Part shown: in pieces, positions 55,278 to 57,015 of the stretch
How the letters are laid out: every line of letters starts with the position of its first letter
Position numbering within the stretch: position 1 is the first letter of the stretch
Assembly: GCF_000147875.1 (NCBI RefSeq)
Contig: NC_014507.1
Coordinates: forward strand, 1,116,001 to 1,180,000
Direction of reading: 5' to 3'
DNA: 64,000 bases
Source: Methanolacinia petrolearia DSM 11571
GTDB lineage: Archaea > Halobacteriota > Methanomicrobia > Methanomicrobiales > Methanomicrobiaceae
Notes under the pieces: model-generated
Seen by the model: the letters and a program-made list of their open reading frames with translations, nothing else
The model's database searches: none
What the model was told of the DNA's origin: nothing
Program-made: the position numbers and the translations under genes

Positions 55278-55874
55278 GTGATTGAAGTTCTGGTTCTTTT
55301 TCTCGGGCCGTCGTTTTTTTCTCTTCTCATCTGGTTCGGGCTGAAAAAAATATCATCGCCGGTGATGAAGAAGACCGCCCTTCTGGTTTTGCCCGTCTTG
55401 TTTGTTCTCTCGATTATTTTATGGGTGCTCCTTAAACCGCATACCATAGGGCCGTCGCCGTTTATTTTCGCACTTGCCGCGATTTCGATGATCGCATTTG
55501 CAGCCGGGTATCCTGTCGCAATCGCGATGAATGTTTTCCAGGGAATATTCAAAGAAAAAGACGAAGGCTACGTGGCGGCATTCGCTCCCCTGATCTCGGT
55601 ACCGTTTATCCTCAAACTGCTGATCTCGCCGGAAGTCTGGGAGGGTAAACTCTACGGCGATTATTTCTCTATCAAGATCCCGCTTATCGGGTGGGCAATC
55701 GATCCCTTTACCTCCGGATGGGCGCATACGACCGCCGGCGACAGTCTGTTTCCTATGCTGATATTGTACACCGGTTTTTTCGTCGAGATGACGATGATTA
55801 TGCTTCTTGTCTTCTGGTGTTTCAGGAAGGCGGCGGGAAGTTCGGGCGATCAGACAACTGAAAAGGAAGATTAG
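55278..55874 (+). CDS. Polytopic membrane protein of unknown family
   Basis: 198 residues starting at a GTG behind GGAGGAAG. Five membrane helices, e.g. LVLFLGPSFFSLLIWFGL, TALLVLPVLFVLSIILWVLL and LFPMLILYTGFFVEMTMIML. A loop containing YGDYFSIKIPLIGW and DPFTSGWAHTTAGDS faces outward or inward between helices 4 and 5. No function can be named. Confidence 0.62.
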   Translation: MIEVLVLFLGPSFFSLLIWFGLKKISSPVMKKTALLVLPVLFVLSIILWVLLKPHTIGPSPFIFALAAISMIAFAAGYPVAIAMNVFQGIFKEKDEGYVAAFAPLISVPFILKLLISPEVWEGKLYGDYFSIKIPLIGWAIDPFTSGWAHTTAGDSLFPMLILYTGFFVEMTMIMLLVFWCFRKAAGSSGDQTTEKED

Positions 55875-56043
55875 ATACGGGTGGATTAAGGAATCAGGAC
55901 AGAAGATCGGGCTCTTAGCTGTTTCATGCGGGTAAATAATTTCAGGATAGCAAAAAATTACCAGAAAACGCTTCGCATTTTTTATCTTCACATCCGTATG
56001 GGTATTACATACCTTACTATACCTTAATCGGGCAACCCCGGCA

Positions 56044-56295
56044 CCGGCGGTCAGGTCCGCCGGACGGCCCCTGCCCAGGGGCCTTGCTTTATGATAGCCC
56101 TCTCACGGCACGCCCGGGGACCGGCAAGGGTCCCCGTGCTGTTGAATTTAGTTTTCGGTACATTCTGTCCCTTACGCGTCATGAATTTACCGCATCTCGC
56201 CGCTCAGGGGATACTTGTCTATCCCCTGTGCGGTCTGTCACAATTGAGAGGCCCCGAGGTCGGGGCCGATCCGCGAACTGCTATGCGGTTCGCGG
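56044..56295. other. Cluster of six perfect stem-loops
   Basis: Perfect stems, 5' to 3': CCGGCGG/CCGCCGG (56044-56063), GGCCCCTG/CAGGGGCC (56066-56083), CGGGGACC/GGTCCCCG (56115-56136), CAGGGGATA/TATCCCCTG (56205-56228), GGCCCCGA/TCGGGGCC (56250-56267), CCGCGAAC/GTTCGCGG (56271-56295). Loops are 2 to 9 bases. The interval has no gene and is far more GC-rich than its flanks. It may be a structured RNA, or a nest of small palindromic elements. Confidence 0.6.
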
Positions 56296-56392
56296 CGAGG
56301 GGTTGTCAAAAGTAGGGAGACTTGCTTTTATACCCACACGGTAATTTTACGATGCCGTTCCGTACGCACCATGAATTTACTATGGCTCGCCG
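56172..56392. repeat. Imperfect 31-bp direct repeat flanking hairpins
   Basis: 56172-56202 and 56362-56392 share TACGC, CATGAATTTAC and CTCGCCG in register (about 24 of 31 positions). Each is followed by a TCAAAAGT string (56306 and 56403). The first copy encloses three of the stem-loops, the second encloses none, as if the hairpins had been inserted in one copy. Confidence 0.5.
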
Positions 56393-56460
56393 TGCGAGTT
56401 CGTCAAAAGTGGTGAAGCTGCAATACTTACGCAGATTAGCGGAGATCCAAAAAAATGAGT

Positions 56461-57015
56461 TTATTTTACCAGGGTTCTCCCCAGCTGCTCCGCCTCTTTG
56501 ATCTTGTCGGGGTACTTGGCAAGATCGTCGGGCAAAAAGCACTGGTTCTGGCAGACGAAACCTGCATCGGTAAATCCCAGGAACCCGAAGACGAATTTCA
56601 GGTAGTCGTTAACAGGATTCAGCTGTTCCTCTTCCATTCCGCCGCATGTAAGCGCGACAGCCATCTTTTTGCCCTTGGGGAAATCCGTGGAAAAGTCCGG
56701 CTTTAAGAGGGCATACAACCTGTCGATGAACGGATATGCCTGTGCGTTCAGCCTCGACCAGTAGATCGGAGATCCGAAGACCAGAACGTCCGCTTCTGCC
56801 AGGGTATCGCAGAGATCTTCCATGCTGTCCTGTATGATACAGCCGTTCCCGCTTTTGCAGCTGTTGCATCCTGTACAGGGCTGGATGTTTCTTTCGCAAA
56901 GCCTTATCAGTTCGGTCTCCGCTCCCTCTTCCCGTGCACCGGAAAGAACATGCTCCACAAGCGTCTGGCTGTTCCCGCCTTTCCGTGGGCTTGACGCAAT
57001 ACCAATAATTTTCAT
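56461..57015 (-). CDS. NADPH-dependent FMN reductase / iron-sulfur flavoprotein-like
   Basis: 184 residues with a flavodoxin-like fold: the FMN loop GIASSPRKGGNSQTLVEHVL at the start, FGSPIYWSRLNAQAYPFIDR near residue 80, and CTGCNSCKSGNGC near residue 47. The CxxCxxCx4C group matches the cluster-binding pattern of archaeal iron-sulfur flavoproteins. Third gene of an operon with flavodoxin and an Fe-S aldo/keto reductase, 69 bases downstream of the latter, so it probably passes electrons between ferredoxin and flavin. Confidence 0.85.
   Translation of the reverse strand: MKIIGIASSPRKGGNSQTLVEHVLSGAREEGAETELIRLCERNIQPCTGCNSCKSGNGCIIQDSMEDLCDTLAEADVLVFGSPIYWSRLNAQAYPFIDRLYALLKPDFSTDFPKGKKMAVALTCGGMEEEQLNPVNDYLKFVFGFLGFTDAGFVCQNQCFLPDDLAKYPDKIKEAEQLGRTLVK

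Follow-up and report, generated by a model that had tools for sequence, protein, structure and literature searches.

Prokaryotic MITEs are described as short, multi-copy, intergenic elements that have terminal inverted and direct repeats, contain no ORF and fold strongly; they are typically AT-rich, and the core of one example measures 113-145 bp (excerpts of PMC10969869). Dispersed intergenic palindromes that occur in arrays are also known as REP, BIME and REPIN sequences (excerpts of PMC3733652), and template switching between inverted repeats has been described as a way in which arms are homogenised and the spacer is inverted (excerpts of PMC8604942). Here we analyse a hairpin-rich region of Methanolacinia petrolearia, formerly Methanoplanus petrolearius, whose genome measures 2,843,290 bp (excerpts of PMC3035365 and PMC4149034), within a window of 64,000 nt (the whole stretch of DNA that was analysed; positions of features are counted from its first letter). 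The region is very probably one copy of an orphaned ISL3-type MITE that carries a structured cargo. The repeat family is not named in the excerpts of PMC3035365, PMC4149034, PMC10969869, PMC3852290 and PMC8604942, and we do not claim that it is absent from print.

Results

A stem finder that accepts perfect stems of at least 7 bp with loops of 3-10 recovered exactly six non-overlapping stems (7, 7, 8, 9, 7 and 8 bp), which span exactly 252 bases (56044-56295), just as the original prediction of six 7-9 bp stems had it. When the window was divided into 183 non-overlapping tiles of 349 nt, these had 0.30 stems on average and a maximum of 3 (0/183 with five or more), and no shuffle folded as well as the region on either strand (z-scores: + strand -7.05, - strand -5.49), which bears out the claim of an order beyond chance. 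The region is also free of genes, as had been noticed, and lies between convergent genes that end at 55874 and 56461. The 31-bp direct repeat reported at 56172 and 56362 is real, and two pairs were resolved here, one of 41 nt (73% identical, 56162/56352) and one of 32 nt (72% identical, 56287/56384); the role of a bracket around half of the hairpins that it had been given was not upheld, however, as the repeat is explained by partial duplication of the element and subsequent decay. Likewise, the hairpins do lie within 56044-56392, but this interval is too narrow, since the repeated unit of about 540 bp runs from about 55910 to 56448 and encloses a 277-bp core (Table 1). Searches with Rfam 15 gave no match above the gathering score in the window (only a sub-threshold match to dauA, 19.7 bits vs 45) and none at the H4 hairpin in 11 further loci, and a tRNA search of the region found none.

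Table 1. The element and its neighbours in the window.
Feature	Position	Strand	Remarks or evidence
198-aa ORF	55278-55874	+	no Pfam match
Whole element, ISL3-type MITE (very probable), with hairpin core and decayed second centre and tail	55910..56448	+	terminal repeats, homologous copies
Left terminal repeat GGCTCTTAGCTGTTTCATG	55910..55928	+	1 mismatch to the family sequence; matches one ISL3-family IS end
AT-rich head	55929..56030	+	conserved among copies
GC-rich quasi-palindromic core, ends GGCAACCCC / GGGGTTGTC, six hairpins	56031..56307	+	277 bp
Hairpin H1	56044..56063		stem finder
Hairpin H2	56066..56083		stem finder
Hairpin H3	56115..56136		stem finder
Hairpin H4	56200..56233	+	perfect stem 56205-56228; 20-mer 56207-56226 (GGGGATACTTGTCTATCCCC) recurs across Methanomicrobiales
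Hairpin H5	56250..56267	+	stem finder
Hairpin H6	56271..56295	+	stem finder, covariation (strongest)
Tail, first copy (AAAAGTAGGGAGACTTGC...)	56308..56339	+
Decayed second core centre and tail (the earlier direct repeat 56172/56362)	56352..56429	+	repeat search, alignment reading
Right terminal repeat CGCAGATTAGCGGAGATCC	56430..56448	+	matches the other ISL3-family IS end
NADPH-dependent FMN reductase-like gene	56461-57015	-

In aligned copies, the core of the family extends from GGC[A/G]ACCCC to GGGGT[T/C]G[C/T]C, has a GC content of 65% and shows a mean pairwise identity of 83% (43 full cores). Alignment of the left arm with the reverse complement of the right arm reached a score of 35, beyond all of 500 shuffles (mean 17.5, maximum 30), and the core thus consists of two arms in inverted orientation, each with three hairpins. 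The family terminal repeats, GGCTCTTCGCTGTTTCATG and (as reverse complement) GGCTCTTCGTTAATCTATG, lie outside the AT-rich head and the tail. The element contains only short, unsupported ORFs and carries no gene for a transposase. The tail at the end differs in some copies, and tandem arrays whose units are separated by spacers of 36-73 bp occur at about 1.68-1.70 Mb, where long repeats flank them. The alternative tail, which ends near GGGATACTACA / GTAGTATCCC (L043 3744-3850; L080, L089, L093 (G009)), is common to elements of another genus that bear a single arm and looks like a second type of mobile element hosting the same arm.

The ends of the element resemble those of two different ISL3-family IS that carry the PF01610 transposase (in genomes G007 and G012): its head agrees with one IS end at 24/26 bases in each case, and its tail with the other end at 19/26 and 22/26 bases. 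Perfect 8-bp duplications flank four of the four IS copies examined (L139, L140, L144, L146), and ten of the 24 element copies with both ends have flanks that agree at 7 or more of 8 bases, compared to 5.0% of random pairings (for example ATAAAATT at L053 and AGCAATAT at L071). The flanks of the window copy agree at 5/8 and form no clear target-site duplication, as is the case for 14 of the 24 copies. One insertion in the sister species (G001, L074) is absent from the corresponding site L132 of the window's genome (G000, 2.84 Mb). The pair L064/L130 was dropped as an empty site because its G001 copy is a deletion derivative, and at L071/L134 the G000 site is occupied by unrelated DNA and is not a clean empty site. 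PF01610 had no match in G000, G001 or the third congener (G002) in a search whose control was positive in 4/14 named genomes, and genes with this domain are present in 5/28 genomes of the taxonomic family. Since the ISL3-like ends, the 8-bp duplications and the differing site are not accompanied by a transposase, we classify the element as an ISL3-type MITE with a missing partner, "orphaned" referring to the lack of a PF01610 partner in these three genomes.

A profile search of stretches fetched around matches yielded at least 54 copies or pieces in G000, 33 of them nearly full length; DNA searches gave dozens of matches of about 300 bp with 70-90% identity (best 40 of 62 candidates), and a consensus query confirmed at least 53 pieces (best 40 of 64 candidates). 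The copies found on the G000 chromosome (C1), for the best 40 of these 62-64 candidates, all lie within about 469-2297 kb, a 1.8-Mb span of the 2.84-Mb genome. A search of other genomes, which the original prediction had proposed, revealed a comparable set in the congener G001 only (60 genomes, the host and its relatives included). The suggestion of a "nest of palindromic elements" was thus well founded, the region being a copy of a dispersed, quasi-palindromic and apparently mobile element. The occurrence of the stems elsewhere as a repeat had been named in the original prediction as part of what would refute it, and for the repeat this is what was observed, although no known repeat family was matched. 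A covariance model of the right arm found 9/199 Methanomicrobiales genomes at E up to 0.01, with strong matches in G000 and G001, a clear one in G009 (5.5e-11) and weak ones in six others. Exact core patterns had no match in named genomes or viral contigs (records very near the host genome may be excluded from this search), nor did the H4 pattern in viral contigs, and a viral link was dropped for these reasons.

The classified clusters of copies number 44, of which 20 lie between tandem genes, 18 between convergent and 6 between divergent genes, two more being unclassifiable. Many broken copies retain the left half (model position 1 to about 127-183; L039, L048, L068, L069, L070, L109, L112, L115, L119, L120, L122, L128, L136) and right-half remnants are fewer, an excess that suggests the loss of one arm of the palindrome. 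About 0.7 kb from one shared copy lies an archaeal RNase P RNA gene (200 bits; L045 4499-4808).

Pairing in the right arm is conserved among copies, as seen by covariation, a check that had also been proposed: 95.4% of cells in the aligned copies are paired, and eight pairs have changed on both sides, compared to 4.0 in shuffles (0/500 as high) and 1-4 in slid controls. This covariation is not decisive for a structured RNA, because homogenisation of a palindrome also predicts it. Between species (16 site pairs), substitutions amount to 0.078 per paired vs 0.170 per unpaired site, and 72/125 changed stem pairs leave one side unpaired. When a given strand folds as RNA or ssDNA, G-T pairs are tolerated and A-C pairs are not. 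A single + strand RNA as the whole story was rejected on this ground (82 G-T vs 54 A-C cells over all stems including the outer one, with the left arm opposite), and its failure led to a test by arm, using parsimony on 62 distinct cores. G-T and A-C changes stood at 41:21 in the right arm, compared to 6:24 in the left (Fisher p 4e-5; p 0.17 for the control at unpaired sites), which points to the outward-running strand as the one that matters in each arm. That each arm would fold on the strand running away from the centre is suggestive only, because H5 departs from the pattern (1 G-T, 5 A-C), no direction had been specified in advance and the tree is blurred by exchange between copies.

Orthologous sites in G000 and G001 were located by flank probes, and at 16 of them both species have a full core. 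At only 5/16 sites was the most similar G001 core the one at the same position (median rank of the positional partner 5.5 of 27), and the mean core identity at shared sites was 0.871 vs 0.835 for other copies, while adjacent flanks and heads were mostly 90-98% identical, with some bins lower or gapped (12 same-orientation pairs). At 4/16 sites, the core is in opposite orientation relative to collinear flanks; in our reading of the alignments, the neighbours are preserved at L046/L121 and only the core appears flipped, and head and tail are flipped too at L038 and L058. We infer that exchange between copies and flipping via the inverted arms rewrite cores after insertion, gene conversion being deduced here from identity ranks rather than directly seen. 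The flipped cases may alternatively reflect independent insertion into the same site. A "recombination site", as had been considered, is unsupported as such, despite these inversions in place between species.

The weak matches of the arm model in distant genomes pointed to H4, the largest hairpin of the core, which has a GGGGATR/YATCCCC stem and an apical CTYGYC. An exact 20-mer pattern of H4 on the other strand, GGGGATRGRCRAGYATCCCC, occurs in 33/199 Methanomicrobiales genomes and 12/38 genera, with counts of 35 in G000, 37 in G001 and 7 in G002, and the same pattern written backward gave 0 in every genome listed. Among 84,980 named species genomes, it was found in 51 stretches, where about 7.5 would be expected by chance over 257 Gb (our own estimate, assuming even base composition). 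Forty-one of these stretches are titled Methanomicrobiales or unplaced Euryarchaeota and 10 have other titles, the latter including an unplaced euryarchaeote with a context unlike the rest (L226) and at least three stretches (L198, L201, L229) that are in a Methanoregulaceae-like context and may be mis-binned. In 49 distinct contexts of Methanomicrobiales type, the innermost pair of H4 is GC in 32, AT in 15, GT in 2 and AC in 0, and TATC follows H4 within 24 nt in 11 (p 0.002), as it does in the core. In other genera, H4 stands in several distinct multi-hairpin contexts (L172-L194, L197-L247), such as GGAGCAAGA[H4]GATTGCGACTTATCGCGATGAGGGGGAGGG and GTGCGGAGAGAG[H4]CGGCGYGACGCAAGGGCGGGGGAGTGGG.

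A second dispersed hairpin repeat, with the 33-mer GCCCTGAGGTCAGGGCGTGTTCGCGAAGCGAAC, occurs 15 times in G000 (8 of these exact; the places on C1 include 393505, 532055, 1277191 and 2727073), 12 times in G001, 5 times in G002 and once each in G014, G007 and G012 (loci L147-L166). It resembles the element in its GGCAACCC end, its chained hairpins and an H4-like hairpin nearby, but differs in its H5 and H6 hairpins, and no ISL3-type ends were seen in the stretches read.

Discussion

The MITE would owe its spread to an ISL3-family transposase that worked in trans on the terminal repeats GGCTCTTCGCTGTTTCATGTGGG and GGCTCTTCGTTAATCTATGTGGG, with each insertion, mostly into intergenic DNA, generating an 8-bp target duplication. 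Its cargo would be the core of about 280 bp, with two inverted arms each folding into three hairpins. Alternative tails and tandem arrays with their 36-73 bp spacers are not made by simple transposition and argue against this account in its plainest form. After insertion, exchange between copies and flipping by the element's own arms would rewrite the cores, and such continued rewriting would explain why two cores at the same site are more divergent than their flanks. The reason for the maintained pairing would be that the arm functions in folded, single-stranded form, as either RNA or ssDNA, presumably on the outward strand. Today, the family is most likely a selfish repeat that still recombines but is largely immobile.

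It is a realistic possibility that the arms have a role as RNA or ssDNA. They could belong to a functional multi-copy family of structured RNAs of the genus, transcribed and using the mobile ends only as a means of spread. This is consistent with the covariation of right-arm pairs, the arm-wise wobble bias, the slower change of stems than of unpaired positions and the conservation of H4 across the order; however, Rfam offers no match, the arms favour opposite strands and hence no single transcript, many copies are broken halves and more than half of the changed stem pairs are left unpaired on one side, and we therefore consider a functional RNA family rather unlikely. If it were nonetheless correct, discrete outward transcripts with ends near GGGGTTGCC would be predicted, and silence would favour the selfish or mechanical explanation. 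In the latter, pairing would be a by-product of DNA mechanics, with template switching between the inverted arms maintaining the stems and flipping the spacers in the absence of selection. The reported action of template switching on arms and spacers (excerpts of PMC8604942), the inversions in place and a core identity at shared sites that is below that of the flanks and near that of unrelated copies fit this explanation, whereas it predicts neither an arm-dependent wobble with no bias at unpaired sites nor a hairpin that is found order-wide and conserved in its apical sequence, and we think it rather unlikely that mechanics alone account for the pairing.

Two further explanations deal with the hairpins without an ISL3-type element. 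The position of the window copy between convergent genes, and the predominance of convergent over divergent gaps among the clusters (18 vs 6 of 44), would suit a cluster of transcription terminators, but homologous units that agree in size and order also lie in tandem and divergent gaps, and a terminator requires no terminal repeats and no ordered hairpins over 280 bp, which makes this improbable. REP- or REPIN-like palindromes moved by an IS200/IS605-type tyrosine transposase (RAYT) would equally be intergenic, palindromic, high in copy number and arranged in arrays; the length of about 540 bp, the ISL3-type ends and the target duplications speak against them, and since PF01797 (Y1 transposase) had no match in G000 in a search whose control was positive in 5/14 genomes, we dropped this highly implausible reading.

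The orphaned ISL3-type MITE is thus retained as the vehicle, and what it carries may be an ancient structured module, so far undescribed. The presence of H4 across the order, together with a second repeat that shares an end and an H4-like hairpin, leads us to treat the arm as an old hitch-hiker. Tentatively, it is possible that the arm (H4-H5-H6) is a structured Methanomicrobiales module that is borne by transposons and active as folded RNA or ssDNA, with H4 read by a conserved factor, and that the two arms of the Methanolacinia element were fused head to head, their amplification being due to an ISL3 transposase that has since been lost. An order-wide hairpin that Rfam 15 does not recognise offers RNA-seq and binding studies a concrete object. 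The repeat family can now be counted, and should be masked or named when these methanogens are annotated and their genomes compared, while the sites common to two species allow direct tests of the rewriting of a palindrome (exchange, flipping and arm loss) in an archaeon.

Compared to the ISL3-family IS with PF01610 (copies in G007 and G012), the element has both terminal repeats and the 8-bp target duplications, but lacks a transposase gene or any coding capacity, is about 540 bp long rather than 1292-1351 bp, and has a GC-rich hairpin core for which pattern and model searches gave no match as such in the IS-bearing genomes. It differs from REP, BIME and REPIN sequences, whose dispersed intergenic palindromes and arrays it shares, in having no RAYT, a much larger size and transposon ends. 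With prokaryotic MITEs it shares all the properties listed at the outset (excerpts of PMC10969869) except for the content of its core, which is 65% GC, about 280 bp long and a two-armed quasi-palindrome with a hairpin, H4, common to the whole order. The element is thus ordinary in kind, as a MITE, and unusual in content, as an orphaned ISL3 MITE with a large, GC-rich, two-armed cargo that includes an order-wide hairpin.
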